A DNA stretch of 64,000 bases from Chondrosia reniformis. Taxonomy: Eukaryota; Porifera; Demospongiae; Chondrillida; Chondrillidae. Of the stretch, positions 15,788-47,408 are shown piece by piece (the stretch's first letter is position 1; each line of letters starts with the position of its first letter). The stretch is from contig OX359196.1 of NCBI GenBank assembly GCA_947172415.1, positions 2,234,501 to 2,298,500 of the forward strand, in the 5' to 3' direction. The translations under genes and the position numbers were made by a program. Below the pieces are notes generated by a model. It was not told the origin of the DNA and did not search any database. It worked only from the letters and a program-made list of their open reading frames with translations.

Positions 15788-15830
15788 TTGTTTATGATTG
15801 TCCACGTATGTCCTTTGCAAAATGCATCTC

Positions 15831-23763: not shown

Positions 23764-25784
23764 TTAATGTATTAAACTAACCATAAGCAATGAGTCGTAA
23801 ATCCATTCTAAATCAGTACTTTCTTGCTTAGTAAGAGGACCCAACCCTCTCATAAAATCACCATCGGAGCATTCCCCTTTGTCAATGTAGGTCAGCAGAT
23901 ATGGACGACCTTCATAGTTGTATTGATATACTGATAGTTTCCTCTTAGAAAGATAAGTGACAGCAAATGTTTCGTGTCTTGGAATTATGCTGAGTTTACC
24001 TGATTCACTGTATGAAGTCATTTTTAAAGTAAAAATGCAAAGTATATGTATGTACACTATATGCAGTTCTTACACATTCTCATGTATTCCATCAAGTACT
24101 TTCTTTCCAATATCTATATATTCTGGTAAGATTTCACCTGCATCACTGTCAGTGCAAGAGCTGCAAACAATTCTTAGATCTAAAGAACTATACATCGACA
24201 TATGTAAGTATGGGTGAAACTGTATTCATTGAGCTATTAAAACACACTTACCCTTCCAGGAAGATCCCATCCAAAATAACTTCTTTTCTTTTCTTTCTTG
24301 ATATATCAATTACTTCGTAAGAGGTACCAACCTTTCGACACTTTATGTTAATCAGTGGATAAGCACCATTTTCAAGTTTTCCCTTGGTTAACACTACACG
24401 TATCTTCAAAATTGTTTCCTCACCCAACTTCTCCATTTGTAACTTGTTTTTTTGCCTATCAACAATTTGAGCAGCCATGCTATTGATAAAAATAAAGAAA
24501 CTAAATTAAAAGCTTAATTGAGGAATCTCATCAAGTAACAAATTACCTTGGTTTGAAGATATGCCTACAAGGCAGATCATCCTTGAAAAATGTTTCAACA
24601 GGGATACAATCACTGAGTTTGGCAGCTTGAAAAGAAAATGTCTTTTCTGCTCTCTGGGTATTCCACAAAACCTTACCTAACCTAAAATTATGGCCAAGAT
24701 ACACTGCAGGGTTTTATAAACTTTACGAGGCTAATGTTAAGTTATGTGTAGCTTTAAAGGGTTTATATACTGAATATTTTAGCTTTAACAATAAAAATTC
24801 TTTCTACAAGCCTGATTACAAGACTTTTGCATGCAGGCAAGGACTTGGAAAGTTCATCATCAAAGCATTATATAGGATACTCCAAATATACTTATACAAA
24901 AATTGTAGCCACCCACTTTCCTTCAATTTTTAAACTGATTGATTTAAAATGATCCTTTCCTTTACAGTCTGTCTCAAAATGTGGTAATAATATCTCCTGC
25001 AGTTTCTCCTTTAGAAGTTTAAATTTTGGAGTTGTCTTGATACATGCTTCACTATGCTATAGTTAAATGCAGAAATAGCACATTAAATAAATTTCTACAC
25101 ATAGTGTGATGTTGTCACAGTGTTTTATACAATGTTCTACATGTTTAAGGTTTATGAGATGCGATAGAATAGTACAGCCTCTGTGTATATAAGCTTCAAG
25201 TAGTAATTTAAATGTAACCTGGTAATTAATGAACATGGTCATATCTTTTGGTGTCATAGGTAGAATTTAGATTTAAACTTTCGCATTCTGAATCTGAAAC
25301 AATAACTTTTATGGACCCTGATTATTGTGAATTGTGGATTACTGTGGATTTTCTTCTGGCTTGGAAGATGTGTCATGATTATTAAGGCTGGTACTGTATG
25401 TTATATGAATTACCCAGATTACTTACAGAAACTGCAAATAAAACAGTTATGTTACTTAGGTGAGTAATAATAGTGTTTTCAACATTAATGTTAAGTTTTT
25501 AACATGTTGATCTCGATGTCCATTTTATCCAGGTGTTCACATATGTATATACCAAGGATATTTGAATGCATAGCATGCTAATACACAGTGTAATGTAAGC
25601 ATACATGTACCTCTGATTGGATTGAACTTTCAAGTTGCATAACCTGGAAGTCCTTGGTAGAAGCCGTAGCTGGTGAATAGCATTTGGAGTAAGGAACCAT
25701 TGAAACTGATGCCTTCCTATCTAACTCAGTTAGGAAGTAAACCTTTTTATACCAATCCTTACTAGGTAATATTGCACCCATTAC
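23764..25784 (-). CDS. Exons 12-17 of the kinase-KH gene: unrecognised C-terminal region
   Basis: Six exons coding residues 674-1008. Features seen: [15 protein letters not shown], a Lys/Glu helix [15 protein letters not shown], then alternating hydrophobic strands ([21 protein letters not shown]), a basic RKKRKEV, and a final block with [30 protein letters not shown] and LEWIYDSLL. Alternating strands and helices suggest one or two folded alpha/beta domains and not disorder. I recognise no family. Exon boundaries use GTGGGT, GTAATT, GTAAGT and GTGTAAGA-region donors; the choice at 24074/24007 is the only one that keeps the frame. Confidence 0.7.
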
Positions 25785-28700
25785 CTGAAGAAATATACAT
25801 ATAGGAAAAAATAACTTTAATTCCATAATGAAATAAGCCTAAGTAATAGTTATAACACACTTATAGTATACAATATTGTGCTATCCGATTGACTGGCTTG
25901 ACAGTTTTTGTTGATTAGTTATGTAGTACATGTTGTATGCTATGTTCTATTATTGGTATATTGCTATATTTAGCATGTTACCTTTTATGTAGGTGTTGCC
26001 TGTAACAGCCATCATTGTCTTGCATGATTATATATGTGTGTGGTACTGAATAATAATTATGTGATTGGCAGTGCCATGTGTAAGAGTCTTGTTGGTAAAC
26101 AAACCCTCAATACACACTCACTACAAATATAAGGCTGCATGGCAAACAGTTAATAACAAAATGATGAAAGGATTGTGACATAGCAATTACATCAGGGTAG
26201 CGAGCTTCTATCGTGTGTGGAAGCTTACGTCAGGGTAGTGAGGTTCTCCCTCAGGTAAAGCTAATGTCAAGTAAGATGACTGCAACATCTAGTGGAGAAG
26301 GCTAATATTTGCCAAATAATTCATGTGACCAGCCCCATTATTAATGGTGCCAGTGCACCAGTTATGCATTCTTTGCTACGTTTGACTTCCCAACTCCCCT
26401 CATGTTGCTTGTTAGGATGGCAGAGAAAGATGTCTGTACAAAGTTGGTTAGGAGATCATAAAACAGCAAGATGTACATATTCTTAAGGGGCAATCAAAGA
26501 ACATTTTGGAAAGCATTAAAATATATTTATACCCTTAGAAAGAAACAACAGATCGAAGAGGTAGCCCTCACAAATTAGGCTAGGTAATGGTAACCTTAGC
26601 AGTGATAACCTGATGGAAGACATCAATTATTACTCATGTCAATAATAGAACCATTATAGGCATACAGTGCTGATTAAAGATACGTAGCCATACTATGTAT
26701 GTCAGGTGTGATCTTGGAGAGCGAATCGCCGTGTTGCAGCAGAGCGAAGACATGTCTACCCCTTTATCTGGCTATTTACGACAGCGCATTGTTAGTTTGT
26801 GGACGCAAGGACAGAATATCTCCTCCATCGTCAGGATTCTACATGCGGAGGGAAGAGACACGATTCGAACAACTGTAAGAAAGTGGATCTTCCGCTGGGA
26901 GGAGCAGAATTGCCTAGAAGACAAGCCGCGATGTGGACGAGCTTCGAAAATAAGCAGCGAAATTGCAGAATACGTGGACCAGCAGCTTGAGGAAGATGAC
27001 GAACTGTCCTCTGTCGAATTGCAACGCATGGTGCCATAATTCGTCACCATGCAGGCGTTAGTCGTTTGTTTCGCGGTTCGAAGTTGTTACAATTAAGTGC
27101 TAATATGCGTGTACATTTTTACTCGCACGAGTAAAAATGTACACGCACGAACCACACGCACGCTACATACGATTTGCTGGCTACGTATCTTTAATCGGTA
27201 CTGTATGTGCATACTACACATTAGCTACCAATCACTGGTGGGTAATGTCAACACCAAAAATGAAGAAACAACAAACTCCTACTTTTAAGTCAGTATTACA
27301 CTAAATGTATTGCATCATGGTTACTAATCTGTACTGCACATGCAGTTTCAGTTTGTGTACATACCAATATGCCTGAACAAATTAGACACAGACTATGGTT
27401 GGAGAGTGGTTGCATCATGCCATCGTATTGCTGCATTCAAGGGATCATTTCTTTCTGATTCGTTCTCTTGGCATCTAAAACCCTCTGCTCACAATGGACA
27501 TTCATTATTGACTGTCTAATGTCAGGTAATTCTTGTTGAAGGTTTTGAACAATCTTGAATATTCCATCCATCAGAAATAGACTGAGACGGTTCTGAGAGA
27601 ATCCCATATTCTTCTCGCCACCTGGGTGGTCATTCTTGACCACACAATACTCTACTGATGTTCATCCTGGAATACAGCAGGGACTACAGATGCACAAGCT
27701 GCTGTTGCATGTGTGATAGTGAATGAAGGATGTCCAGGGCCTAAAGAATGTTGTCCTGGTATACTGTACCTAGACGATATCCTTGGAATGCCAGCAGATG
27801 CAGCAGCTGATCCAAAGATGTAAGTGACTGTATGGCACTAAATTCTTCCTCACTTCTCAGTCTGCCTAGCCTCTGTAGTGTGTTCTTTCAGATCTGTGCT
27901 ATGGTCCAAATACGCACCAATTAACAACATCAGGAAACTGTTGATTCACATATCCCCAAACTGCCTTTCATATGATTGAATCAAACTAACCATCTTGTCC
28001 ATTCCCAAGAGGTTGCAGAATTAACTCACTCCAGCTATTTTATATATTAATATTGATCTGTAACGTCATGTCAAGGCACAGAAACAAGAATGCTATCTCT
28101 ACTGTGGCATAAGCTTCCACACGAGGTAGAAGGTCCTACCCTGACATAAAGCTTCCACCTAAGGTAGAAGGTCCTACCCTGACATAAAGCTTCCACCTGA
28201 GGTAGAAGGTCCTACCCTGACATAAAGCTTCCACCTAAGGTAGAAGGTCCTACCCTGACATAAGCTTCCACACGAGGTAGAATTCCTTATCCTGACACGT
28301 AATTACCCTGGCATACCTTTGAAAGCACAATCATAGCTTCTTCATATCCTTCCTTGCATTCTTCTAAAGACTTTGCTCTAATAGTGACGACATCCTATCA
28401 AAAACGCATACACAGAATAAGTAATGTATATAAGCAACTTAAGTAGGTTTAGATTATTGTAACTGGTAGATTAGACCTGTCACCTAATAAATAAGTCACA
28501 AGACATATTTACTTGCACTACACTCCCATGCATACAGTACATCAGCATATAATAATATATATGTACTTGATCTCACCCCAAAGGAGTTGCTCGGCATGTC
28601 TATGTCAACGTAGCACCCTTCAAGTGTCTTTATATACTGAATGTTGTTGTGCTTGTGGCCACAAAATATACTGTGACGAAGGTCACCAGGAAGGAGAAGA

Positions 28701-31700
28701 TTTCTTTGAAATAAATCCTGTCTCTTTGGATCATCATGAGTAGATGTTTCTCTTAGCTGTATATATACATGAAGAAACATATCCATATTAAAGTCCACGT
28801 ATATACACACATACACTGTATTTGAAATGGCAAATCAACATCAAGATATTCATAAATAATTTTTAAAGTGTTCATTAACCAGGATTTAAACCACATAAAT
28901 AAATAGCAGAATTAATTGTAGTACAGTACAAATGAAATCTTACTAATTAATGCAAACCATAGTTGTTAAGAGTGAATAATTAATTCTCTAGTTTAGCCTT
29001 ACTACTAGCCCTACCCATAAGTACTGGTTCTGGCAACACATAATGACATACGTAGAAGGGTGAGTTTTCTGTGACAATCTATAGCTAAATGGTATAATCA
29101 AAACAATTGAAAGCTACAACATGAGTCATGCTCCTAGACAAAGACACATGTTTATACTTGCAATATTGTATACCCAATATGTACGTACAACTATTTAAGC
29201 CAACAAAGCGAAGTTGTTATATATGTATAGTCAGGACAAGCTTGCTTAATAAGCATAAAATGATAGATTCAGATCCGTATTAAACCTGAATTCAAGTTAT
29301 TTATCACCTAAAAAGGTGAGGAGTTGCTAGACCAATTTAAATTATTTTGCACTGACAATACTGTCTCCTATAGGTACAATATTAATACCAGAAACACTTA
29401 CGCTATCCTTGTCAGTGTTCCTGTTATCATTGATTAGTGTACATATCATAGTTGCAGCTTCTTTTCTTCTGCGTCCACTTATGATGAAGGCCCTATAGTA
29501 CTAAACATACATGACTTCATATATATATATATAGTACAAGCATAGAGTATCTGGCACTGCTCAGGTGATGTAGTAGTTTACTAATATACTATTTTATTGA
29601 TCTAAAGATGTGGCCATGAATTAAAAAACCGAGCCACACAGAGACAGATAATGGAATTAAACTTATTAATTTTCTTATTCGTTCTCTATGACTTTGAACA
29701 CATAGCCCATGTTACTCCCCACAGAAATTTTCATTTGTAAGCCAAGTTTGGAGTTAGTGGCTTGTAGCTTGCTTGATTGATATAGATACTGAAGAAAAAA
29801 TGCTTGGGATTTGCCTTAGTGACTAAGAAACTAATTTTAACAAAGAAAACTAATGCATAGGATTTGCTTTAATGGTTGGTTCACTTCCTGTGTAAACATG
29901 TTAATCAAAAATTAAACCTGTCTATATTAGATAAAGTCCCTCCATTATCATCCCAATATCATGGCTGTGGGGTATAAATATACTGTCAAACCTGTGTTAG
30001 TGGTCACCTGAATAACAGTTGGTTCTCAGAGTCCCCCTCATAAATCATATACGTATACAATGGGCCATACATAAGGCTTTCTAAAATACACATGTCTAAT
30101 AAGGAGACCAAGTTTAGATGGTCCTAATCCACCCGCATTAGACAGATTTTGCTGTATAATGCTAAAGGTATAGTTAAATTCCACTAAAGTTAACCAAACA
30201 ACCAGTCAAGGCTTCTTTCTATAGCAACCTCTTTATTGTGCAGCACTCTTCGCTATGCAATGGAAATGAAGTGAAATACGTAGTATATAGCAATAACATC
30301 TCCTGGTTCCATGCAGGCTACCACAATATAAGTATACACAAAGATGTATGCATTTGATATACATCACATGTACTTTATACATACATAATTTAAACCAAAT
30401 CCCTATTCTACATATAATGTAGAAGCAACTGTAAGCAATAAGGGTAACCTGTAATGTATCACTAGTATTGGGACAAGCTTAATTTTATTTTCCCGTTAAA
30501 TAGTAAAGTAAGCTATATGATTGAGTATAAAAAACAATGCAGCTTTTAATTCTTAAGTATTAAAATTTCAACCTTTGCTAAGGCCTTCTAAGCATACCAT
30601 GAGAAAAAGTATAATAATATATACCCAAGAGATATAATATGGTTAGAAGAGGAAGCTAACACATTTAAGATCTTTACTTAACATCCCTGGATGTTTTATA
30701 TGTCTAATTAAAAGGCTGGTAACACTAGCAACTACTACTTGGACGAGTTGCTAGATTTGGTAGGTATGAATCTCGGTGAGAGGTCTCTCCCTTGTGCTGC
30801 AAGTGTTGGCAGCTGCAGTGGCTTAAAGAAGCAATCAAGACTCATTCTCATATTCGACGCGCCTATGGACTCCTAACACATGAATAATCCATGTGTCAGT
30901 ACTGATATCAAAAAGTGTAAATGTGATCACTAACTGTTAATAAAATAGCTAATAATTTTTGGCAAATTATAAATTGTGCAATTCGCAATTGCCTAATTGG
31001 CAGTCGCCAATAAAAGGCAGCCTACAGTGTATATATACGTACACAACCTTTTGCAATATTATTACAATACCAATATATAGCACTTCTAAACTTCTCATAC
31101 TAGAAATTATAATTACAGTACATTAAACATTATGCAATTATAGGTTTACCGTTATTTATATATGATAACTGAGAATTATCACTCTGTATCTTTGTGGAAA
31201 ATACTTCTGCACTATAAATATTAACAGTTGCTTATCTTACCAATTTTTTACTATTTGCTAAATTAGTTGATAAAAATATCACAGTTAAATTTCAAAAGCT
31301 AACTAGACATACTCGCATAAAGAACCACGAAGGAAGGGTTGTGTTATCTAATTTGAATTTTAATGATCATACTTACTGAAGTGAATAGAACACTTGCTTC
31401 TGTCTCACTTTCAATGCTCTTCACATTGTTCCGTTTTCTACCAAAGACCCTACCAACACATACATCACTTGGAAGTTCTACTGATTCAACTTCCTAAAAC
31501 AAAAGCAAATTGAACTTCTAGCACATGAATAGAACATTGAAACTTATTGATATTTATAATAGTAATACATAGAGTAAACATCTGTATATCAAAATCCTAG
31601 GTACACAAAAAGCAAGCATTCATTAGTGCAAAGAGGCTTCCTCAATTTAGCGGTTTTCTTAATTAAGTGTGATTTGTTTATCAAAATGATACTGCTTTCT

Positions 31701-34700
31701 TTACTAACACCACTTTGTGGGAAAATAATAACCACATTCAGTCATCTTTGTACCAGGATAATGCATAAACATACCCCGTTGCCAGGGCAACCGCCGGGAT
31801 ATAACTATATTTAAGAAGCTATATACTGCCCTCGGATTTTTAAATTCTGTTTAGAAGCTATATACTGCCCTCGGATTCTTAAATTCTTTTTAAGAAGCTA
31901 TATACTGCCCTCGGATTCTTAAAGTCCCACCAAAATAACGATAAGAAGCTTCGGAGTATATATCACTTATACCACGGTGCTTCGGTGTATATGGGTTTTA
32001 TACGTACGAGTCACGAGGGCGCATAGTATAACTAATACATACATATAATCTTAATTGTTATGATTGATATCAATTATTGAATGTTAGTTTAATATATTTG
32101 ATAGTTGAATTATTATCAGTGAAATTAAATTCTAATTTACACATAGAAAAGATACTGGCTAATAGGAATTCCCTAACTACATTTCTTCATGCCTATAAAG
32201 GTCCTTTAACTTTTCAAATATCAAAAGATAGAATCTAATATGTAAGTAGGTTTCGTTGTATATATTTCACTTACTTCATAGTCACATGAAAAGGCAATGG
32301 AACTGGTTGTTCCGGTTTCAGTATTTTTGGAAGCAATCTGGAAAAATGTGCATTAAAAACAGACTACCCTTAGCTATTGTACATATTACATACGTATGTA
32401 TATTACGTACATATCTAAACAGTAAAGCACACCTTCTGTTGTATTAGTTCATCCAATTTTGACAAACCTTGCTGTCGAATATTACTAGTTTTTCCTTCAA
32501 TAATAAAACATTCTTTACCCTAGAGGTAGAAGGCAGATCTTGAAGCACAACTTCTCAGCAAAATGGTGGCTGATAGCATGATGAAATTTTCTGATTACAT
32601 ACCTTGTCATAATAAATGCGGGCTCCAGTCACTTTATGTATACTCTTCATATTTGTTCCATTAGCTCCAATTATCAATCCAAGCACACTTTTATCACCAT
32701 CAAAGGGATGACACAGATTTTCCTTAGTGGCAGTAGTTACTTCCTAATATAATAAAATACAAATTGCAAATGTAAGACCACTAGAGAAAATAATTTCAAA
32801 ATTTCTAAGAAGGCAAGTGACAAATTTTGTGTAGCAGTAGGCACTACTCATCTCATGGGTGGCTGCAATCACAAAGTAGGGTCATGCGTATATAATTATA
32901 AGGAACCATGTCAGAGCAAATAATCAAACTTGACAACAAGATTAAATGAAAGGAGACCTTATCTTTTGAAGAGCACAATTCAATCAGATATTCAGCAAGC
33001 TATGTATTGTAGATAATTAAATCCAGGTATTCTGCAAACAATAGATAAATGACAGTATGCCAATGCTTTATAAGCATCAGCATAAGAGTTTTTATAATTG
33101 TAACCAGATGTTCCCACACTGATAGTAATGGCCTTTTTTATATTGGAATTACAGACTTGTGTTTGTCCATAGAGCCATCAAAGTGCTATCGTAATAGAAC
33201 TAATCAGAAAGCCAGAAGAAATACCTCAAGGGGTTATCATGGATGAAGATTTATGTTAAATTTGCTTGGGTACTACTTACTACTGAACAAATAGTGAAGA
33301 AAGCAATGGAGTAAATAAAGGAAATTTCAACAATGTGGTTCACAATTTATGGGTATGCTGTTTAGATTTAGCCTCTTTTGTAGGTAGCCACATAAAGAAT
33401 ATAACAGGCATTTAGGGCCGGAAATCCATCTATCAGTGGACTCGTCCATTACTCTTTTGATAAACACCCATGAATAGTGAAATATTCAACTAAAATGGCA
33501 AAATGCAAACAGGTATCCCACAATATCTTTACAAAATGAATGTTTTGCTCAAAATGGTTTAAAATGTAAACACTAGAAGTGCTGCTTTATGCAGTGTTAT
33601 ATACAGCAGTTGTGTTAAAAATTATAAACGTTCTATACTCCATGTGGTGTAGGACGTATTCATATTTGGTACCATTAATTAGAAACATATGGGAAAGGGT
33701 GCACCCATGGATAGTAACATTGGCGCTAGGTAGCGAAGGCGTATGGATCTCGCCGAATTTCGAAGCCAGTGACCCAGTTGTTGACTCCATGTATCCTAAA
33801 CCTTTCAATGCACCTGCCACACAATGGGGAAAGCTGAATGAACCGCTAGCAAAATTGCATTATGCATAGTACTGGAATGAAAGAGCAGTCAAAGTGAGGG
33901 TGGTGGAATGCGGCCTAATTGCTAGACCTAGCAAAGGATTCGTTGCAGCCTCCAATTGTGCAGGACGCTGGGCAATGATGAGACAGTCCTCTTGGAAATC
34001 CAAAGTCCATATACAAAAAGGGATAGCAGTATAAAGGAGGCATGTGTTGATGGCAACTTCTTCTGTACATTGAACAATTCAGAGCTGCAGCTAAAGCGAC
34101 ACCACAACTACAATCACCAGGTACAACTACAGCTCTACTGTCATCCAAATATAAACAAAATGGTGTGACTTCTTTATATATACATGAAAAGACTGTGGAT
34201 GTGAACGAATCTACCGAGATATTGCATGGCAACAACAATCTGTACCTGAGCTAGAACGCTACTTTGATGAATAGATCACACCTGAACTTATTAGGCCACA
34301 ATACAAGCCCTCATACTACCTGACAATGTAATTGCATAACCATTATGACACTGCATTTAATTATATACTCACACATGTTATTCATGTATACAGAGTATAA
34401 GAATATAATATAAAGGAGGATAACAAAAGTTAGTTAGCACAGCACAAATAAAAAACATTTGTGTACTTGTCTTACAGAAAGATGATGGCAATACGCAGTC
34501 GAACATGTGAAAATTTTTTATCCGCTCCTTACAGCATTCTACATGAATGCACAGAGAGGCTATCCTGCGTGTAATTATCTTGTCCTTGGCATCAAGCTGC
34601 TGTTTGCCCTTGAGAAAAGGAGGGATATTTACACGAAACCTCAAGGGTGTATGTCAAAACCTCCATCTGCCATTATGGTGTCTCCAACCTCTTACAGTCC

Positions 34701-37700
34701 TAGCAAGCCACTACGTCTAACTATTTCCTTATCCAATAATGAATCTGGGAAGAGATTAGAGGTAAAAGTCAGCACTCCTGATGGAGATATGCCAACTAAG
34801 GCTTTGTATGTGTTGTGGTTCTTACAGTGCAAGAATGTCAATTGTTGAATCTCTGGCATTGATGGCATGTCAATATAAAGTTCAGTTGCATCAATGATAA
34901 TTCTTGTTGTTGGGTAATCTCTTTTTTAACACTTCAGGCATGGTCGCTTGTATAGCATCTTTCGACATCCAGAAGGGTAAATCCTTTAGTTGGTGGTACA
35001 GAAAGCTTATCCATGTGGACCAAACACTACTGACAGTGGACTGTGATACAGCAAATCGGTATGCTAGTCTTACTCAAACAGGCCTTGTTGTAAATGCATG
35101 AGGACCATTAGAAGCTCAGCAAGAAATCGCTTTCTCTTCAAGTTAAAAAAGGTATTATTAAAGCTTTGGACGAGGGTGCCAGTCAATCAGGAATAAAGAC
35201 GGCGATAGCGAAAAAGTTTGAAACTCTACCGTATCTGCTATCATTAAGATTTGTACAAGGATTATCAGTGCTTACGAGCAGTCTACTTTTGAGCCTTCCA
35301 GAAAACGATTGAGGACATCCACTTACAACGACAAAGTTTATATCTGCAAGACAAAGGAAACTTACTGATTTCTTTATATAGCCAGTAGGAAACGTTATTA
35401 TGTACACTTTATACACTTTACGCATTTTGTATGAAAATTTTGATTTCTGTTAAGATTAAAAATTCTGTTAAGACAAAAAATTTTAGTAGTCCCGACCATT
35501 TTATCCTAACAGGGCTCAACTGTATATCAAGCAGGGACTATCTTACTCCCAACTTGGTATCACACAGTGCTGTTGTTATTGGAAAAGGGAAGAAAAGACA
35601 AAACTACAGATATCCAAAAACGGAGGAACCACATAATAATTGGCAAGGTCTTTGGTAAGGATATGATCAACATTTCCCCACTATGAAGAGCTAGTCTCTC
35701 GTGTAAAAAGTGCGCACAGGGAGTTAATTTGCAGGTGGAAAGGGTGCATTCGCATGCAGGCACCATTTAAAGATTATTGTACGCAGCAAGTACGTATGAG
35801 ATAACACACTGGGAAAAGCCTATAATAAATGTGATGTGAGTCTATTTCAAGTCCTATATGCATGAATATTATGCATGCTTCAATTGTTTTGTTTTGGACA
35901 AGTGTTTATCAGGTAAACAGTGTCTGTATTCACAGCACAGCATCTCATTGGTTATGGGCTTTTACAGAATCATTCGTAGCTACTAATCCATGCATCATAT
36001 ATAAATTTACTCCTTTGTTAATATATATTTAGAGGTATATATGCATGAATATAGTATGTATTTGCAATAATGACATCTTGTACGTCTTTTTTTATCGTGC
36101 TCATTATCCTGGATGCTCAAAGGCTTACATATATATACGTACAAAGTTTTCCTGGCATTCTTTTTATAGTACAATTGTCCAAGTATTTCACAAGTAAGTT
36201 AAACAAGTATCCACGTGTTTAACAATAATTTACAACTTACGTCAGAACACAAGCAATAGATGATTGATCGTTTTTATTCATTTTGTAGGCCTATAATAAG
36301 GATGATCTAAAACGATTTGGGACGAATTGAAAACTAAGCCGAAACAAAATGGTACGCCATTCTGGCTTAGTCTTAACGAACGGAACGTATACTTTTTTGA
36401 CGTATATAAGTATATAAATTTATTAAGATATACGCATATTACATACGTACACACCTATGAAGTGCTAAGGGTTGTTTGTTGTGATCATGATTTAATCCAG
36501 AGGTATTATAGAGTAACAGCAACATAAATTCTTGCTAATAGGACATTTCAACCCGTAGGTCTTCATCAGCAAACATCACCTATATATTACACTACCAGTG
36601 CTAATTTTATTGAAAGATTTATTGATGACTACTTTTAGAGGATAGAAAGACAAAAGCAAAATGTCAAGGATGTATGGAGCAAATTAAAGGAGGAAGGTCT
36701 TAAGCCCAAGTTTAATGGCAAAATCAAAATTCTGATTTGTCACATGCATGTAATATGTCATCTTGTGGAGCCGTATGTACACAAACCTTTTAAAGACTGT
36801 CAAAAATATTATATTAAACATATTTTCTATATACTCATGAAAATGTATCTATTTATATTCTCCATGTAGAGCTTTAGGCAACGGTTATTTAGGAAGGATA
36901 TGGCACTGCAGAATTTAAGAAATTTTAATTAAAAGGCCTAGGAGAAGAAATTAAAGTCATTAATTGTGACTGCAGCCATTTTAAGAAACAAAGACTATGA
37001 ACATATCATCATCCATAATTTTTATATTTCTATCTACATGTTCACTGCAATATTCAGATGCTTTCAAAATGAAAGTTGTCAATCTACCTTTCAAGCAAAA
37101 GATGCATTAAAAATATACATATATTCGAGGGACATTAAAGTTAATGTCCCTACGTGTATATATTATATATAAAAGATAATGTTTTGAAAGAAATCATCTA
37201 CATATAAAAGACACTTAATTTTGTTGATTGCACCTCAATATTGAACCAATAAACAATTCAAATGTGGTCTAGAAAGGAATGGTTTAACATTCCTTGCCAT
37301 TTTCTAACATAATTATGAATAGACCTGATAATAACCTTGTAGTCATTTAATATAAATTAAGTCCTCCCTTTTTGTTAGGATTTTGAATTAATGTATATAT
37401 CAGCCACAGTCTACAATAATTTGTTATTATGCTGATATGTATGGTTTCCGTTGGTATGCCTGTGAAAACCAAGTTATGCAGATCCCATGGAGGGACAGTT
37501 AAAACTACTGATGTGTCCCTATGGATTTAGTCCACTTATACATGAACACCTATTCCATTTTCCTTACCTATTATATACGTATATAGAGAGAGAGAGTGAG
37601 ATTTTCATAAAGCTCCAAAGTCATTTTTAAGCTACAAAGGCTTACATAATGCTGGTCCAAGAAAAGAAAAGAATGCCAGGAAAACTTTGTACGTAGGAAA

Positions 37701-40700
37701 TCCAGTATAGTATTGAAACATTTCTGGATTATCTTTAATAGAATCTACTCGCATTCTGTTGGGCTGCATTAGCTTTGCGATGGCATCGGTAGAGGTAGCT
37801 ACTACCCACTTGCGTACCAGCCTCTATGGTCGTCCAAATGAACGGTAAGTTAGTGTCTGCCTCATTTTCACTTACATAGAGAGACGCCGATTGCTCACCT
37901 TTGTTTGGTCTACGACACTTAGGTGGCTTTCTTTTCTTTGGCGACGCCCTGCTGGTTGTAAGCTTAGGCAGCTTCTGCATAGGAAGCTCGTCTAGCCTCA
38001 GCTTACGGCCACTCGAGTTGAGAAAGTGGTTGCTGGCAGACTCTAGTATTTCTCTTCTGTGGCACGTTGCTTCTTCCTATCTTATGGATCCACTCATGCA
38101 AAAGTGACTTGTTACTCAACGGAAGGCAGTGGTAGGTGCGGTCTATTTCACGGCCAGAGTGATTACTGCAACCTGGAACACACACAACAAATAACATTTG
38201 GCGTCTCATCGCCTATAGCACAAAGATACTACCATGTGACAGTCTGCAACCTTTACTGTATCTTTCTAATTATTCCACGAAAAATAAACACCACTATAAA
38301 TACATCCCATTGAAAGAAAGTTATGCATAAACCTGTATAAATTTAAATTTTGACTGTTTTTCGAAAAAATTGGCATCCATCAAAGGTGCCATAATTTTTA
38401 CATTTGTAAACATTCAAGATTATACAACTAGAAGAGGTAAAAGCCCAACAAATAATCTAGTTCTGAGGGCAGCAGCCCAATGAGTTTTTAAACTCTATTT
38501 AGTTAGGTTCTCATCAATTTTCTTTGTATTCCATGATGAATAACAATATTTATTCCTATAGGATCAGAAATCCATTCGTATAACTCATTAGTCAAGAACA
38601 TTCCGTAGGTCAATGACCGTCTAGTACATTTTGCTGATGATTTATCCCATGCATGGGGAAAAACAAAAAATAAAAAAGGTAGCCAGCATGTGACTTTACA
38701 TACAAAATGGACGCTTTTGCTCAGAAGGGTAGGATTGCTACTCAATAATATGCCAAAAGGGCTGCTTTAGATTGTGCAATATGCAGCATTGTATAAATGT
38801 TCAATTCCTTGCAATATTGCAAAGATACAACAGAAGAAATGACATCATTGTACACTCTATTTAGTTAGTACATATGATAATTATAGCTATTCAACAAGGA
38901 TTTCACTTGGTCCCCACCATTATGTAGCTGGAATGTATAGTGTCTCATACAGAGACTGCTTTATGGCTGTATTATTGCATTGATGGTTGGGGTCATTGTT
39001 AGTACCACTGTCAAACTTAATTATGAACAATGAAACAACGGAGTAACACAGTAACAAACAAACACACAAACTCTACTGAATCTATATATATAATTCAGTA
39101 GAGTTTGTGTGTTTGTTTTTTTTGTTTGTTACCGCTATACTCCGTCGTTTCTGGACGAAATGCAGTCTAACTCTCACGTATTATGGAGTATCACTTGGGA
39201 AGTGACCTGAAGTATTTCATTTACGAAAATTCGCCGCTGCGGAGAAGAGTGTCCAGTCTTAAATTTATGTACGGGAAAGACGCCATTTTTTAATCGTTTT
39301 ATTGTAGCGGAGAAGCCGGCCGAAGGAGGGCTTCTATGCTAGTTATATATATATATAGATTGAATGATATGGAGTAGTTGTTGCGATCATAATTAGTTAA
39401 TTGATGATTATTGAGCTGCAGCAACAGGAATATTCTTTAGAATTGAACATTTCGACCCTAACATGGTAAAGAAAAACTGAAAGGTTTTCTCGAACATCTC
39501 AACTCCATTAGGGACAACAGCAAATTCACAATGGAGAAGGAAGAACAAGGACGATTACCTTTCTTAGATGTCTTGGTCGAAAGAGTTTCACAACAAATCC
39601 ACACCAGTGTGCTCAGAAAGCCTACACATACCGATAGATACATTCACTACAAATCTAATCACCACCCATCCACCAAGATTGGCACCATCTTATGGCTCAA
39701 AAAAAGGGCTGAAGACCTATGCAAAGGACAATCACCACAAAGAGAACTAGAACACATCAGAACCACCTTAATTGCCAATGGCTACCCAGAAGGAATTGTA
39801 AGAAGAACACTAAAGAAGAAGAAGAAAAGAACTGACTAAAGAAGGAGAATGTGTCCTCTGCCTACCTTACATCAAAGGTTTAAGTGAAACCCTACAAAGA
39901 GTTTGCAGACCACTGGAAATGAGAATCAGACACAAGACAACTAACACTCTTCGCTCCATATTGACCAGGATAAAGATACCACTACCAGAGACTCAGAAGA
40001 CAGGAGTCATATATGAAATACCTTGCAGATACGGACAAGTGTACATTGGTGAAACATGTAAGACCCCTTATTGACAGGATGAAGGAACATAAAAGGTCAG
40101 TACAAAGGATTGACACTAACAACTCTCTAGCTGTACATGTTAAAGAAACCTCACGACATCTCATGGGCGAATGCTAAGGTATTACAGGAAGAACAACACA
40201 AAATCAGAAGAAAGATCAAGGAGGCTATACTAATACAGAAAACACCTTGCATGAACATGGACTTAGGAATGAATGTGGATCCCATTTGGAAGGACATACT
40301 TAATTAACACTACCACCTTATTTAATTCTTTTTCATACTAATTAATATTTGGTGCAATTCACTATTACATCATCACTCACCACCTGCCATCTATTTAAAC
40401 ACACTTGTGCTCCTCTCCTTCATTATTGCTGAGGAAGACCTTAGGGTCGAAACGTTCAATTCTAAAGAATATTCCCATTGCTGCAGCTCAATAATCATCA
40501 ATTAACTATATATAGATTAAACTGCAACCTCACTAGCATTAGATACTGTATAGCAGCCGGGTGAATTGCAAAAACCTGACAATAGAGCATGCATGTGCCC
40601 ATACAATAGCACATGTCAACTACTAAAGACAAAAGAAGAAGAAACATTTTTAACAGGGCCCTTAGCTGTTCAACTCCTTTGAGTACATTAGGTTTGGTGT

Positions 40701-43700
40701 GGCATTGAAATATATTTTATTAGCTCTAGTAACATATGGAATATACTTCAAATTCTCAATGAAAGTAAAAATAGCTAGGATGTGGATTTAGGAGCTGATA
40801 AATAATAACACATTGAACAGGGAGGCCATGCTATTTTGGGCAGTCCATCACTCTTTATAAGAGAAAGCTTTTGTACCAATGATAAACTAAAATAATCCTT
40901 GGTTGTTACTATTCGCTTTGCTATGCAGTGAGAATACACTTAATTTGTCTGCAGATACGAAGAGATTAGTCATGTCAATGGATATATAAAAGACCAGTGT
41001 ATATTAAGGGATTTTGATACTCTTTATATGTAAGTGAATACAATTACACTGTCATATATGTTTCTCTTGTAAAGTAATCTCTTGTGTATATCCATTATAG
41101 GTTTTGAGATTGAATGCAGGCTAAAAATATGAAATGACTGGATCCCAGTATTGAAAATACCTTTATGCGAATCAGCTCCTTCAACTCTTGAAGGCCTCGC
41201 TCTCTGATATAAGCAGTTTTTCCTTTAATAACGAAACAAATCTTCTCCTAAGAGGAAAAAGGAAGTTACAAACATGCTTAGCATTATATACATAAAATGC
41301 ACTTAATGAACTAACAGTGTCATAGAACACATGAGCTCCAGTGGTTTGTTTAATTTTCTTCATGTTTGCTCCTTTAGTTCCAATTATTACTCCAACCATG
41401 ATTTGATCGCCATAGGGATGATAGATATCATTTGAACGGTAAACTGGTTCCTAGTATAATTATGATAATATGATTGGCATAAATTCCACAAAAAATATGA
41501 AAACCAGTTAAAAATTAGCACAGCGTGAGTAATCTAATACACCATATTCCTACATACACACTACGTACGTACATCTGTGTATTCTACAGAAGAGCTTATA
41601 GGGAACTAAACCCAGTAATCCAGTAATGTAGGTATGGGTATGCAGGTAATAGTAGGCATATCTCTTGAAGTCCTCTTTTATATATAGACTTTTCTTCCCG
41701 CCCTTTCTAGTAGCATATACGTAATTCTTACAATTTTAACTACCTGAAAGGTTAAAAGATTATTGAAGAAATTAGAGAGGAAATAGAGAGAATAGTCAAA
41801 AAAATGGAATAAATCAGGTATATTAATACTGAACAATAGTATTGATAGCAATTATCATGATAGTAAATTACTATCAAGATAGTGAAAGCACACTGGGCCC
41901 TGTCATGATAGTGGGGTTAGAAACAGTGAAAACTACATAACCCAAACCTAATCCTAAGATTTCTACGATTAACACTACAGATAGTCAACCAACCACTTCC
42001 TAAGACCGTTCATCCCAAGGGTTTCCCAAGAATGGTCACTACAAGCCGTTAATACATTTCTGGCATTTTCTTTTGCATCGATTTACAGTTTTTGCGTTAA
42101 ATTTCAGATAGAATTAATGCTATTTCGTTTCGAATTAATGCTTTTGAGATGCACTTTTCGGTTGCTATCAAGCATTTTTCATTTGCTTTTAACACAAAAA
42201 TGGTGCCTTTGGTTAAAAGGTTTTGTGCCATTGCATACAGCTACCTTTGTGTTGGAATTTTCAATTTTACATCCATCAATTTTCAGTCAGCTGTGATCAG
42301 TGATGACTTGTTAGTGTTTGTTTGTGTTGAGCAATGGTTATTCATGGAATTAACAGACTCATTATTGGAAAGCAAACTGTTGTGAAACTACTGAATAATG
42401 TTACTAATACCTCAGCCACTATTGTGATAGTAAAAAAACACTATTGCCCAAAACTGCCTTTCCAATAACTTGTATTTCATACATTTAGTCCAAAAAGTAC
42501 AGCAGAGAACACTGTGATTTTGCCACTTTAATAGCCTAATCTAAATAATAGTGGTTAATAGAATGTAAATAAATACATTAATACAGGTATTATATATACA
42601 TAGCTTTTCAACATAAGTCAAATAATCAGAAGCCTTGAAATTTCTTCAAAAATCCTACACAGTTTAAGCTGTACCAAGCATGTGCTCCTAAAAATACACA
42701 CAATACTTGCATACTTAAAGAGAACATTTAAAATATGAAGTTTGGAAGGATATGGCACCTTTGGAAAAAGTATCTGAACAAGAAAGTGATGAGATTTAAA
42801 AATGGCTAACCATACAGTAGTAGTATGTATGTGTATTAAAATTTATATGGCTGAACTGTACACATCACTTCTGTGTTTAGGAACATTATCATACCCAAAG
42901 TAGGGATGATGTCCCCCAACATAGAAGTAATATGTACATTTAAGTTTCAGAATGTCAAAACTGTATCCTTACCACATCACACAGTCCTGTTGTGATGCTA
43001 TTACATATGTATCTCCAATCCTCATATTTAACTTCATTATTTAAATGTTTTTATTTAGCTTGTATTTAACCTTTTCAGCTACACATACTGGCATTTGCAA
43101 CATCAAAAAAGGAAGTAGATAAGTTCAACAGCACATTTGCTGGACTGGTCTTTGGTGGCAAGATCAAGGTTGTCCTACGCTTACTGGCCAACTTTGAGGA
43201 CGAAGGAGGTGGTGTGCTTCCCTTGGGGGCACTGATTGATGGGGAAGAGTCAGTACAAGATGTCTTGAAAAAGAAAGGAAAAACACCACAACCAGACACA
43301 TTACTAACAAATGACAACCCTGTTCACACTTTAGTCCTCCGCGTCCTTTTTGAGAGAATTGATGGGGACTCATGGAGGAGCTGGTCCTCTCTTCGCAAGA
43401 CGTTTGTGTACGGAAGTAGTGGATTTCAACAACCTACAGGCCTATGTCGCATGTAGATTGGTACCATTGGACAAGAGACCTGGAGTTCGCCCAATCGGGA
43501 ATTGTGAAGTAGCAAGACGAATTATTGGTAAAGCATTCCTCACTGTCATCAGTGGGGACATTCAGCAGGCTGTAGGCACATTGCAGCTATGCGCTGGTCA
43601 GATAGCTGGAATTAAGCTGCCATCCACGCCATATGGCGCCTTTATGAAAGTGACAACACTGAAGCAGTCCTTTTGATTGATGCGGAAAACGCCTTCAATA

Positions 43701-46700
43701 TCCTTAACCGAAGAGCAGCACTGCATAACATCAGCATACTGTGTCCTGCCTTGTCAACCATACTCCAGAATACATGAGGTGGAACTTCCAATCTTTTTAT
43801 CGGCGGAGAGGCCATGGCCTCGGATGAAGGAACTACTCAGGGTGATCCCCTGGCCATTAGTATGTATGCAGTGGGCATAATGCTGCTATTGCCTGAGTTA
43901 CAGTCAACAGGAACTAAGCAAGTGTGGTATGCAGATGATGCAACAGGTGGAGGAACACTGACAGAAGTTCGTAGCTGGTGGGATAAACTGACCTTGAAAG
44001 GCCCTGGGTATGGCTATCACCCCAAGGCCAGCAAATTGTGGCTACTAGTGAAGGAAGCGCGGCAGGAGAAGAAGCTAAAAGAGTGTTCAGTGGAACAGGA
44101 GTATGGATCACCACTACTGAAAGTAAGAGGCTTTTGGGACCTGCTATAGGTACCAGTGAATTCGAGGAAATCTTTTATAAAACCACTATATCTCCTCTCG
44201 TCAAGCAAATATCCAGACTGGCAAAGGTCGCACAAACACAACCTCAAGCAGCATATACAGCCTTTACTCATGGTCTAATAGGGAAGCGGACATTCCTAAC
44301 ATGAACATCCAACAGCATAAGTGAACACCTTCAGCCCCTGAAAGATGCCATTAGACTACAATTCATTCCAGACCTGACTGGACGTAGCCCATTAGGGAAT
44401 GAAGAGAGAGACCTCCTCGCCTTACCACTGAGACTTGGAGGCTTGGGCATTGTGAACCCAACCAAAGATGCGGACATTGAACAGGCAAACTCACAACATG
44501 TGACAGCACCCTTAGCAGCACGCATTGTTGAACAAGACAAGAACATAGCGGACATCCAAACGGAATTGAAACAATGCAGGAGAGAGGCACACAACTTCAA
44601 ACGTAAACATAAAGAAGAGACAGCTGTCCGATTGAAGACAGAGCTTCCACTAGCCTTGTGGAGGTTGGCTGAACTAGCAAGCGTAGGGGGAGCATCCAAT
44701 TGGCTGACAGCATTACCATTAGATCAGTATGGCTTCACAAAGGCGCTTTTCGTGATATCCTTTGCCTGTGCTATGGCTGGCTGCCACCACAGCTTGCCGC
44801 TCACTGTGTTTGTGGACATGCATTTACCATCGGCCATGCCTGTCCTGTCCCACTGGAGGATATCCATCCATATACCATATGAGTTGCGTGACATCACCAC
44901 AGATCTACTGAAAGAAGTATGCAGTGAGGTCACAGTGGAACCATCTCTGCAATCTCTCACAGGAGAAGTGCTGGCCATGAGAACAAGCATAGACTAGACA
45001 TCAGTACAAGAGGATTCTGGGGAAGCCAGTTTGAACGGGCATTCCATGACGTAAGGGTTTTTAATCCTAGCGCCCCAGCAAACCGGTCCCTCCAGTTGAC
45101 TGCCATTTATCAAAAGCATGAGCAAGAGAAACGTAGAGCATATGAATAGCGAATCAGAGAAGTTGAGAACACTTCTTTTACACCACTGGTATTTGCTGCA
45201 AGTGGTGGAATGGGTAAAGCAGCCACCGTCTTTTATAAGAGGTTGGCTTCACTCCTCGCTCAGAAGAAACACCAGTCTTACAGCATCAAAATGGGATGGC
45301 TCCGCACAGTATTGTGCTTTGCTCTACTAAGATCAGCAATCCTGGGGATGCCAGGCCAGGCGACCACCAACTTATAGTGACCACGCCACCGACCTGATGG
45401 TCAGTGAGGGACACTTGGGTCATTGACAATGCAAGCCACCAAGCACAAAATGACTTGTATACAACTCTTAGTTTCCTACTATTATTTTTATTATCATTAT
45501 TTCATATATAAAGTCATACGTTGGTGTAATTATTAATTAAAAAAATTGTTGATATTTTTTAAAATTTATTTCCAACTTTTTCTTGGTAAGAATTTGCAAT
45601 AACATAAACTCTGAACAGCTAAAGACATAACCCAGAGTATAGCGAAAATGGTCCCTTCAGAACTAATTGATTTGTATATAGCACGTTAAAAGTTAGAGTT
45701 AACTATTCCTTAGTTTGCAAAATTAATGATAGCCAGATAAAATCAATTCACAATCTCAATCAATCTTCAAACACATGCTTTCATTCTCTGCATGATTTAC
45801 AGTAAACAACTAAACTGGATATGCATGGGTCTTGAAATTTATTTGATATGTACAGTACATATTAGGAAGTTTAACTGAAACTAACTAGAACAAGCTTCCT
45901 TGATTCAATTCCATCTGTAGAATTTGTGTCTCTCTGAAGATGTGGGTGTGTTGAATTATGATCTCTACCGCTTGAATTTGAACTCCCTTCCATTTTCTAG
46001 TTTAACATCCCAGAAAAAGGATAATAATTTAATTAAACAGCAAAGTATGTCTTTTATATTTCTTACTTCTGTGGTTTGGTTTGGGCTTTTGCCAATTTCC
46101 ACAGTACAATTCTCAAGTATGTTGCCACAAACTAAATTTAATGTTTGAATTACTGGTCTCTGCTCTTGAACTAGACTTACTACAGAGTTGATGGAAGAGG
46201 TGTGGCAAGCATTCTCTACATTCCTGTCTCCTAGGTTATCCTCACAAACCTACATTGAAAATGTATGATATGTATAGGTGATCACAGTTACCATTTCAAC
46301 ATGATAGTTGAGTGAGGAGTAAATGGGAGCCAACATTCATCTAAAAATCTACATAAACAATAAACATGTTATATACAGTTATATATTTATTTAGAAATGC
46401 AGATAGAGATTGCTCTATTTCAGCATGGAAAAGGGCAGGCTTTAATTTTAGAATAATCAAAGAAAGTATGTAGTACATTACTCAGAATACGTTTATTGCA
46501 CTAATCTAAACACTGCATATCAATGCACATACTGTAATGTCCCCAAGCTTCACATTAACCTGTCTTCTTTGGAAGAACTGGTCAAAGCATTTTAAGATAC
46601 TTTTTGAATCAGGCCTTTCTACACAGTTGTTTTCTAAACATTGCTGAGCCAAACGTTTCAGCCAGGCTAACTCCTCAGAGAACAGACTAAAATATGATTC

Positions 46701-47408
46701 TCGTCTTTGAAATTCACTGCGCACCAGTCTTTTTTCATTTTGTGAGACTACACCAGGTAGTGGTTTTGGTAGGTTTTGATTCATTGTGTGAAGAATCAAC
46801 ACACCAAAGGAGAATGAATCTACTTTAAGGGAAGGAGACGGGGGGTCCTCCAACATTTCTGGAGGCATGTAGTACTCAGTGCCAGCTTGGACTGAAGAAT
46901 TGTATAAAGCAGGTGAAACCATCCGAGATATACCAAAATCACTAATTTTAGCTGATATGTTAGACGGACTATTAATCCTAAGCAGGACATTATTAGCTGT
47001 AAGATCTCCATGGATCAGATCTTTCGAATTTAAGAAATCCAAACCTTCAGCTACATGTAGAAGAATAACTCCTTTCGTAGGAAACTGTAGGCTCTGATGT
47101 TTCTCTAGGTAAGAAGTCAGGCTCAGATCCATCTTCTCCAAAATCAACGATGGGTACGATTCTTCGGAATCTGCACTCCAAACTCCGTACAAGGTAACGA
47201 TTCGTTCATGCGATAAATCTTTCCACGTACACGCCTCCTTGCGAATCTGTTTAACTTTTACTTTTTCCTTTATAAATTTTTTGACAGCGCAAGGAACCTC
47301 TTTAGATAAAATGATTCCATCGTATACTTTGCTAAAGCTCCCTTTACCAATCTTCTGTCTGTTACAAAGTATTTCCTGCGATGAAAAGACTAATAATACT
47401 TCAGCCAT
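23764..47408 (-). CDS. Protein kinase fused to four KH RNA-binding domains, 17 exons, 1008 aa
   Basis: Exons: 46560-47408, 46067-46249, 41316-41450, 41161-41247, 32603-32743, 32433-32519, 32275-32337, 31377-31493, 29402-29500, 28577-28756, 28317-28394, 25611-25784, 24917-25056, 24547-24681, 24252-24479, 24074-24160, 23764-24007. Together they give 3027 bases in a single open frame; the first 12 junctions are phase 0 and all have GT/AG ends. Order: kinase (1-283), linker (284-344), KH1 (345-418), KH2 (419-494), linker, KH3 (516-587), KH4 (588-673), then about 335 residues not recognised. By architecture it is a cytoplasmic RNA-binding Ser/Thr kinase; substrate unknown. Start ATG 47406-47408 chosen as MAEVLL..., right before the kinase fold; an in-frame Met 24 codons up is possible. 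The main doubt is whether the kinase exon is really spliced to the KH exons (an unspliced 3' end would stop at 46506). Confidence 0.7.
26180..26275. repeat. Iteron-like repeats, inverted relative to 28095-28310
   Basis: CAGGGTAGCGAGCTTCTAT...GTGGAAGCTTACGTCAGGGTAG is the reverse complement of the tandem unit at 28095-28310. With that array it brackets a roughly 2.1-kb block inside intron 11 of the kinase-KH gene. Confidence 0.6.
26665..27203 (+). mobile_element. Internally deleted Tc1/mariner element
   Basis: Terminal inverted repeats CAGTGCTGATTAAAGATACG (26665-) and its near-perfect complement ending ACTG at 27203 are flanked on both sides by TA (26663-26664, 27204-27205), the target-site duplication of Tc1/mariner. 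Inside, 26695-27039 codes a paired-like helix-turn-helix N-terminus of the transposase ([18 protein letters not shown] ... [18 protein letters not shown]) that stops before the DDE catalytic domain, which is deleted. A 19-bp perfect palindrome (27106-27145) sits near the deletion point. Non-autonomous. It lies in intron 11 of the kinase-KH gene. Confidence 0.9.
27106..27145. repeat. Perfect 19-bp inverted repeat inside the Tc1 element
   Basis: Arms reading GCGTGTACATTTTTACTCG and its complement are separated by only two bases, giving a strong hairpin. Confidence 0.9.
28095..28310. repeat. Tandem 38-bp repeats, about five copies
   Basis: Unit AAGCTTCCACCTAAGGTAGA + AGGTCCTACCCTGACATA, repeated with few changes. 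It ends within about 10 bases of exon 11 (28317). Each unit contains the inverted pair GGTAG...CTACC. Confidence 0.9.
28317..41450 (-). CDS. Exons 3-11 of the kinase-KH gene: four KH domains
   Basis: Each KH domain is coded by two phase-0 exons split between the GxxG half and the beta3/C-helix half. KH1 (41316-41450 + 41161-41247) has [17 protein letters not shown]2 (32603-32743 + 32433-32519) has [15 protein letters not shown]. Both second exons are exactly 29 codons. KH3 (31377-31493 + 29402-29500) has GRKR and KH4 (28577-28756 + 28317-28394) GHKH where the GxxG loop is expected, so KH1-2 are canonical nucleic-acid binders and KH3-4 degenerate. A 21-codon Ser/Thr-rich exon (32275-32337) separates the pairs. 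The introns inside KH1 and KH2 are only 68 and 83 bp, those between domains large and full of repeats. Confidence 0.85.
29983..30157. mobile_element. Pogo-like MITE in intron 8 of the kinase-KH gene
   Basis: About 175 bp bounded by TACTGTCAAACCTGTGTTAG and, inverted, TACAGCAAAATCTGTCTAAT; TA at both ends. No coding content. Confidence 0.5.
31811..31930. repeat. Three tandem copies of a 40-bp unit
   Basis: AGAAGCTATATACTGCCCTC occurs at 31813, 31853 and 31893 with a strict 40-bp period, in intron 7 of the kinase-KH gene. Confidence 0.9.
32744..34382. other. First part of intron 4 of the kinase-KH gene
   Basis: No recognisable gene. Open frames at 33579-33869 (+) and 33915-34238 (-) lack motifs; they may be debris of the transposase that follows. 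Confidence 0.4.
34383..35050 (-). pseudogene. DDE_Tnp_4-type transposase remnant (ISL2EU/PIF-like)
   Basis: Minus-strand broken frames read, in order: [15 protein letters not shown], then [14 protein letters not shown] (first catalytic Asp region), [17 protein letters not shown], then [10 protein letters not shown] (second Asp), then [13 protein letters not shown] and [11 protein letters not shown]...RIKNFH with the final Glu. This is the core of the DDE_Tnp_4 transposase superfamily. Stops and shifts occur near 34650, 34730 and 34900. The THAP remnant at 37735-38209 on the same strand, upstream, may be its N-terminus, since THAP-DDE_Tnp_4 transposases are known. The region lies in intron 4 of the kinase-KH gene. 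Confidence 0.8.
35110..35522 (+). mobile_element. Pogo/Tigger element, internally deleted
   Basis: 35124-35330 codes a CENP-B-type helix-turn-helix N-terminus ([20 protein letters not shown], then, after a frameshift near 35220, [16 protein letters not shown]). It is joined directly to the typical C-terminal tail RKLTDFF and a stop, so the DDE core is gone. The element ends at a TIR whose complement begins CAGTTGAGCCCTGTTAGGAT (ending 35522), followed by TA. The 5' TIR is missing. It sits beside the DDE_Tnp_4 remnant. Confidence 0.75.
35523..37734. other. Middle of intron 4, no gene
   Basis: AT-rich. A 10-bp hairpin GGGACATTAA/TTAATGTCCC lies near 37129-37150. No further coding remains recognised. 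Confidence 0.4.
37735..38209 (-). pseudogene. THAP zinc-finger gene broken by a one-base insertion
   Basis: From 38209 downward one frame reads [12 protein letters not shown], then [14 protein letters not shown] and NTRVC, the first part of a THAP finger. At about 38035 one extra C shifts the frame; in the next frame the missing SNHFLN follows at once, then a basic [14 protein letters not shown] tail, ending at a stop at 37735. The Cys-x3-Cys and Cys-x2-His ligands are all present across the break. Either a young pseudogene or an assembly/sequencing error. It lies on the same strand as the DDE_Tnp_4 remnant and probably was its DNA-binding part. Confidence 0.75.
39035..39150. repeat. Long imperfect inverted repeat (foldback)
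   Basis: A perfect 23-bp arm pair (CAAACACACAAACTCTACTG...) around TATATATA is extended outward by GTAACAAAC/GTTTGTTAC and CGGAGTA/TACTCCG, with an extra T-run on one side. Arms total about 50 bp. Confidence 0.8.
39394..40508 (+). mobile_element. Penelope-like element fragment with inverted terminal repeats
   Basis: Between two 68-bp inverted repeats (39394-39461 and 40441-40508, about four mismatches) lies the 3' half of a Penelope-like element: the RT thumb motif LPFLDVLV...[12 protein letters not shown] and the NHHPSTK segment (39531-39839), then a GIY-YIG endonuclease ([25 protein letters not shown]..., 39990-40130) and the end [14 protein letters not shown] (to about 40300). Frameshifts occur near 39835 and 40065 and in the GIY-YIG region; the RT fingers and palm are lost. 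Repeats in inverted orientation are known for this class. It lies in intron 4 of the kinase-KH gene. Confidence 0.85.
42735..42925. repeat. Dispersed MITE-like repeat, copy 3 (diverged)
   Basis: Shares GGCTAA-C-ATACAG, CACTTCTGTGTTTAGG and AAGTAGGGATGATG with 2165-2372, with a weaker terminal hairpin. Confidence 0.55.
43075..45345 (+). mobile_element. Dead retroelement with reverse transcriptase (copy B)
   Basis: A 2.3-kb element opposite to the host gene, in intron 2 of the kinase-KH gene. Frames in order: N-terminal part (43120-43440); [20 protein letters not shown] and LQLCAG (43350-43676); [20 protein letters not shown] (from 43677); [16 protein letters not shown] and [11 protein letters not shown] (43814-44149), with the YADD site intact at about 43926-43940; then a coiled-coil-like linker (44443-44997); and a C-terminal part with GGMGKA and a Trp-Leu-Arg helix (45000-45340). 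Shifts near 43440, 43676, 43800, 44080, 44310 and 44995 kill it. It is better preserved than copy A at 20600-22850. Confidence 0.85.
46560..47408 (-). CDS. Exon 1 of the kinase-KH gene: Ser/Thr kinase domain
   Basis: A whole kinase domain in one exon. Gly-rich loop GKGSFSKV at residues 21-28, Lys43 in AVKKF, Glu58 in the C helix, catalytic loop HGDLTANN (133-140), DFG at 157-159, and PPE (182-184) in place of APE within the EYYMPPEML stretch. The HRD arginine is Gly, making it a non-RD kinase, but Asp135, Asn140 and Asp157 are kept, so it should be active. The EYYMPPE...DSFSFGVL region resembles TKL-like kinases that are expanded in sponges (remembered, not searched). The donor GTTAAT after FFQRRQ is weak; read-through would give a 17-residue tail ending at 46506, a possible kinase-only isoform. 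Confidence 0.85.

Follow-up and report, generated by a model that had tools for sequence, protein, structure and literature searches.

Two sets of domains lie on the minus strand of the 64,000-nucleotide stretch of DNA analysed here (the window): a complete protein kinase domain and, downstream of it, four KH domains. Their fusion into one protein depends on one junction only, that between exons 2 and 3 of the gene model. A nearer splice partner for exon 2, a terminal exon followed by a candidate poly(A) signal, suggests instead a separate kinase gene of 394 amino acids or a short isoform. With little more than even confidence, the region is read here as a pair of adjacent minus-strand genes.

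The first-pass annotation had described a 17-exon model running from 47408 to 23764. This model was rebuilt exactly: all 16 introns have GT/AG ends, the exons sum to 3027 nt or 1009 codons, and the terminal stop is the sole stop, as had been claimed. The exons were picked for openness, so the open frame is partly circular and does not test the exon 2/exon 3 junction. In the HMM check that had been proposed for the 1008-amino-acid product, Pfam Pkinase matched residues 17-273 at E 7e-37, and KH_1 matched in four places with a combined E of 3.1e-22. Thus the proposal of a kinase and four KH domains in one protein holds for the presence of both domain sets; the joining of exon 2 to exon 3 is a possibility, with a rival end of the kinase at that place. 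Twelve of the 16 introns are in phase 0 and six are short, at 66-95 nt. The features, with the end of exon 1 redrawn, are as follows.

46851..47900, no strand: CpG-rich segment and likely promoter, with an observed/expected ratio that peaks at 1.43; it covers the start of the kinase
46533..47408, minus strand: exon 1, entire kinase domain, 292 codons (Pfam Pkinase 7e-37; donor scores)
46067..46249, minus strand: exon 2, of phase 0/0 and 61 codons; its donor GAA/GTAAGA is strong
45871..45996, minus strand: exon 2b, absent from the earlier model; candidate terminal exon, 41 codons and stop TAA
45838..45843, minus strand: AATAAA, possible poly(A) signal for the kinase as a gene of its own
41569..41574, minus strand: weak candidate KH-gene start, ATG TAC and donor, 118 nt upstream of exon 3
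41316..41450, minus strand: exon 3, first half of KH1, GTKG (Pfam KH_1 2.2e-06, exon alone)
41161..41247, minus strand: exon 4, second half of KH1 (KH_1 5.3e-07 over exons 3-4)
32603..32743, minus strand: exon 5, first half of KH2, GANG (KH_1 8.6e-06 over exons 5-6)
32433..32519, minus strand: exon 6, second half of KH2
32275..32337, minus strand: exon 7, KH2-KH3 linker
31377..31493, minus strand: exon 8, first half of KH3, GRKR (KH_1 4.1e-06 over exons 8-9)
29402..29500, minus strand: exon 9, second half of KH3
28577..28756, minus strand: exon 10, first half of KH4, GHKH (KH_1 0.0012, 19.0 bits against a cut-off of 21.5)
28317..28394, minus strand: exon 11, second half of KH4
25611..25784, minus strand: exon 12, with which the C-terminal region begins; nothing in Pfam up to E 1
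24917..25056, minus strand: exon 13, from the rebuilt model
24547..24681, minus strand: exon 14, from the rebuilt model
24252..24479, minus strand: exon 15, from the rebuilt model
24074..24160, minus strand: exon 16, from the rebuilt model
23764..24007, minus strand: exon 17 and stop; AATAAA 33 nt past the stop

The kinase domain is complete. Pkinase scored 127.7 bits against a curated cut-off of 31.7 and covered profile positions 4-259 of 263. The catalytic lysine (K43), the alpha-C glutamate (E58), the catalytic-loop residues D135 and N140 and the aspartate of DFG (D157) can all be read from the translation by comparison with known kinase motifs. On this sequence the kinase is probably active. 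Among the best 60 of 2293 matches to PDB sequences, the first was 7t6f, 'tyrosine-protein kinase' (E 2.8e-21), followed by ABL1. The domain resembles those of tyrosine and tyrosine-kinase-like kinases in its completeness and differs in that its catalytic loop reads HGD, not HRD, with Gly134 replacing the arginine. The end of the activation segment, GTxxYMPPE, looks closer to that of Ser/Thr kinases. Single-sequence structure prediction of the kinase exon gave a mean pLDDT of 32.4, too low for use. Eleven prokaryotic NCBIfam models also matched the kinase and were set aside, all being far under their cut-offs (the best, antiphage_MADS6, had 84.1 bits against 460).

The KH exons 3-11 are taken as one gene, since the domains read across splice junctions, KH1 and KH2 are alike (46% identical), and a phase-0 intron splits each of the four domains between its halves. 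Because the KH_1 matches cross these junctions, chance does not explain the chain of KH exons. As single domains, KH1-KH3 scored 29.7, 25.9 and 26.9 bits, above the cut-off; KH4 is below it. The GXXG loop is the nucleic-acid-binding motif of KH domains. It is intact in KH1 and KH2 and lost in KH3 and KH4, and it is a natural inference from these loops that KH1-KH2 would bind single-stranded RNA or DNA. Against solved structures, the KH profile matched IGF2BP1/2/3, FUSE-binding protein, PCBP1/2, KSRP, Nova-1, hnRNP K and PH1566 (15 distinct chain sequences); the array as a single protein had no match to PDB sequences up to E 0.01. The last 335 residues, encoded by exons 12-17, matched nothing in Pfam at E values up to 1. 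For this region a PDB match at E 0.53 and an NCBIfam match at E 0.02 (14.4 bits against 500) were both taken as chance. These exons were also compared with open intron windows by a held-out codon score: the share of windows that did as well was printed as 0.0 for exons 13, 15 and 16, and was 0.086 for exon 12 and 0.035 for exon 17.

The splice scores derive from no more than 14 introns, all belonging to this model, so that gaps of a few bits should not be pressed. The donor at 46560 (CAG/GTTAAT), where exon 1 had been ended, ranked last among the 16 donors in leave-one-out scoring (1.57 bits). On a scale built from introns 3-16 alone it reached 1.85 bits, and 31% of same-strand GTs were as good. 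In the same phase and 27 nt downstream, the donor at 46533 (ACA/GTATGT) scored 7.88 bits, equalled by 1.7% of 3664 GTs. With this far stronger donor, exon 1 most likely ends at 46533 instead, and the model then has 1018 codons. Since this in-phase donor is the strongest in the kinase ORF (runner-up 4.95 bits), splicing of this exon in phase 0 is very probable, which speaks against an intronless kinase.

Exon 2 is credible as a real exon. Its donor scored 7.18 bits. On both strands, the only open AG..GT stretches of phase 0/0 and at least 183 nt with sites matching those of exon 2 are exon 2 itself and the kinase ORF; when the threshold for the sites is lowered to 3 bits, the whole window has 19 such stretches on its minus strand and 6 on its plus strand. 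The held-out codon score of exon 2 is neutral, 9% of open intron windows being equal, and that of exon 14 is not distinctive, with 20% equal. The coding score therefore cannot decide the junction of exons 2 and 3.

To reach exon 3, exon 2 must be joined across an intron of 4616 nt that contains mobile-element-like ORFs on the opposite strand. The nearer partner, exon 2b, follows an intron of 70 nt, which fits the other short introns of the model. It ends with a stop at 45871, and the AATAAA lies 27 nt past it, a spacing like that after the stop of the KH gene. The acceptor of exon 2b scored 6.31 bits, in the top 3.5% of AGs, against 3.48 bits (top 12%) for that of exon 3. Among the 45 terminal candidates in intron 2, exon 2b was the best, at 12.64 bits. 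As an internal exon, ending at 45886, it would have to use an in-phase donor of only -0.63 bits, equalled by 60% of GTs.

The two strands of the window hold 1047 phase-0 terminal candidates (554 minus, 493 plus), of which 23 reach 12.6 bits. An AATAAA was found with three of these 23: exon 2b, the unspliced kinase ORF and one candidate on the plus strand. In a control on all 16 introns, intron 2 alone had an in-phase end scoring at least 8 together with an AATAAA; this control is limited, in that nine introns had any terminal candidate (170 in total) and seven had none. One candidate in intron 11 scored 12.46 bits and one in intron 9 scored 10.75 bits, both lacking an AATAAA. The minus strand carries six copies of AATAAA between 46560 and 41451, so that one near a stop is not rare. 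No AATAAA was present within 60 nt after five other ORF ends examined, which need not be gene ends; one of them has an ATTAAA at 12 nt.

These splice signals, with the terminal exon and its poly(A) signal, favour the reading as two genes. The first would be a small kinase gene of three exons, 47408-46533, 46249-46067 and 45996-45871, encoding 394 residues. Its product would consist of an apparently active kinase domain resembling the TK/TKL group and a tail of 111 residues rich in Ser, Val and Asn, and it would have its own poly(A) signal. The second, with its 5' end somewhere after the first, would encode the four type-I KH domains and the C-terminal region of 335 residues. It probably binds single-stranded RNA through KH1-KH2, and KH3-KH4 may serve for structure or protein contacts. 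Computation gave the domains and the splice signals, and also the terminal exon with its poly(A) signal; the production of two separate transcripts, like the kinase activity and RNA binding by KH1-KH2, is what we infer from them.

The main alternative, to which we give somewhat less than an even chance, is one gene in which the kinase is continued through exon 2 into the KH array. The protein would have 1017 residues, or 1054 with exon 2b as an internal exon, and would be a kinase tethered to or regulated by RNA. KH1-KH2 would carry it to certain RNAs or activate it there, leading to phosphorylation of bound proteins. The 394-residue form could then be an alternative product of intronic polyadenylation. 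Exons 1, 2 and 3 are compatible in phase 0, with strong donors on the first two; with phase 0 so common among the introns of this model, the match is weak evidence. Between exons 2 and 3 there are only three rival internal-exon candidates of phase 0/0 (acceptor at least 2 bits, donor at least 4 bits, length at least 30 nt), all antisense to mobile-element-like ORFs, which speaks for joining these two exons. Against it stand the size and content of the intron, and a terminal exon with a poly(A) signal just where the junction is presumed to lie.

The start of the KH part bears on the same question. The earliest in-frame Met in exon 3, at residue 18, lies beyond the first strand of KH1. KH1 thus has no start of its own in this exon, which is a point in favour of the fusion. 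Since the acceptor of exon 3 looks real, something is spliced upstream of it. No outstanding start exon for a KH gene was found in intron 2, which holds 12 ATG-donor pairs on six donors of at least 4.5 bits; eight of the 12 are antisense to mobile-element-like ORFs. The density of initial-exon candidates is 1.3 per kb in intron 2, as against 1.07 to 3.1 per kb in the four other phase-0 introns holding any; six of the 11 introns tested have none. Within 300 nt before the acceptor, exon 3 has one such candidate, exon 10 has two and the other nine have none. The ATG TAC candidate was rejected as proof of a KH start, such candidates being about equally common in the other introns that hold any.

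CpG content was compared at four gene starts, which were placed by eye. The window is depleted in CpG, with a mean observed/expected ratio of 0.38, and the kinase start lies in a promoter-like segment. Between exons 2 and 3 there is no CpG-rich segment; the maximum there is 0.70 at 41801-42200, the 87th percentile. A promoter-like segment at the kinase start with none before the KH exons agrees with the fusion. Peaks of 0.91 and 1.18 were found at the GST-like start and at the NF-Y-like/divergent starts, and the start of a PDGF/VEGF-like ORF has about 0.1-0.2 and no peak, so that three of the four starts examined are CpG-rich. The window has 23 CpG-rich segments, several within introns or mobile elements. 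Because such segments are not specific to starts, the CpG pattern is taken as a hint only.

The genes used in this comparison, and others in the window, were noted in passing. A glutathione S-transferase-like gene, recognised by eye, lies at 7053-8285 on the plus strand; its frame at 7017-7514 has no Pfam match at E 0.01. A histone-fold exon at 52922-53203 on the minus strand (CBFD_NFYB_HMF, E 1.1e-04) belongs to a gene that seems to share the CpG-rich segment 54001-54800 with a divergent gene on the plus strand from 54454 onward, the first exons of which look ubiquitin-like by eye. The PDGF/VEGF-like ORF (14936-15850, minus strand) has 305 codons, is rich in cysteine, with a signal-like start and CxC repeats, and was named by eye; it has no Pfam match at E 0.01. 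Its presence suggests an animal genome. At 4808-5809 on the minus strand there is a DUF1647 ORF (E 1.2e-12).

Mobile-element-like sequences were seen in several places. Broken sets of ORFs containing TTQGDPL, resembling retroelement reverse transcriptase by eye, lie on the plus strand at 43070-44997 and 21006-21738; the former also has a YADD-like motif, and three pieces of it gave no Pfam match at E 0.01. Intron 4, at 8417 nt the longest of the model, holds fragments that resemble a THAP-type zinc finger and a transposase, again by eye, at about 38200-33900 on the minus strand. In intron 11, a mobile-element-like helix-turn-helix ORF at 26674-27036 on the plus strand (HTH_32, E 4.2e-07, below cut-off) lies inside the CpG-rich segment 26501-27500. 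Tandem repeats are present at 28108-28297 in intron 11 (units of 38/76 nt) and at 31810-31923 in intron 7 (unit of 39 nt). There were no repeats of at least 25 nt in 40500-48500, and Rfam and tRNA scans of the window found none.

A fused long form together with a short form lacking the KH domains fits all of the evidence. Tentatively, and with somewhat less than an even chance, the locus may be a single animal gene of this kind. It would encode a competent TK/TKL-like kinase, a flexible linker, four KH domains, two of them competent to bind, and the C-terminal region. The long form would be controlled by or targeted to single-stranded RNA, and intronic polyadenylation at 45.84 kb would give an RNA-independent isoform. 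Very improbable is a third reading, an unspliced kinase gene whose one exon would encode 300 residues and stop at 46506; exons 2 and 2b would then be part of another gene or of none. In its favour, the frame stays open as far as that stop and has an AATAAA 8 nt past it. Against it, the best donor of the ORF lies 27 nt before the stop, in phase with exon 2, and no other stretch of the window equals exon 2 at its site strength.

No kinase-KH protein was found among the open-licence papers searched, as judged from search listings, and this counts against the fusion. Two papers on unusual kinase architectures (PMC4177888, PMC2939887), searched by term, gave no match for a KH domain, KH_1, RNA binding, Amphimedon or sponge, and 'KH domain' does not occur in PMC8662651. 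In PMC2394772 the animal-specific domain combinations include 37 partners for Pkinase and six for KH_1, and a Pkinase-KH_1 pair is possible among them. One apparent case, guanylyl cyclase A (PMC2901513), was discarded, its 'KH domain' being taken as the kinase-homology domain. The 1008-amino-acid spliced model had 19 pattern matches among genome contigs, in a collection without animal genomes, and none was confirmed. Among viral contigs, none of 26 matches to the KH and C-terminal part and none of four to the kinase was confirmed. Since the collections searched hold no animal genomes, this lack of relatives is uninformative for an animal gene.

Both readings have consequences. If the region is two genes, it illustrates how phase-0 introns allow neighbours to merge into a reading frame that looks clean and is false, a pitfall when intron-rich animal genomes are annotated automatically. 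If one transcript joins both parts, it would encode a kinase that itself carries a reader of single-stranded RNA.

Such a reader, if true, would differ from PKR, which responds to double-stranded RNA, and from GCN2, which responds to tRNA. Among the ten Pfam matches of the spliced model up to E 1 there is no dsRNA-binding domain, and neither the RWD domain nor the HisRS-like domain of GCN2. In PKR (EIF2AK2) the dsRNA-binding domains precede the kinase. Should the fusion be real, the protein would, like PKR, combine a kinase and domains that bind RNA in a single chain; these would be type-I KH domains, which bind single strands, and they would be placed after the kinase. Partnerships between kinases and KH proteins are known in trans, as with Src and Sam68 or PKA and AKAP1. 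There, too, a kinase acts on or through a KH protein, but the partners are separate proteins, whereas the fusion would place them in one chain. The KH part itself, to which the collections searched offered no full-length counterpart, resembles the tandem KH proteins IGF2BP, PCBP, KSRP/FUBP, Nova and hnRNP K in its profile matches and tandem layout, and differs from them in that two of its four domains lack GXXG and its C-terminal region matches no Pfam family.
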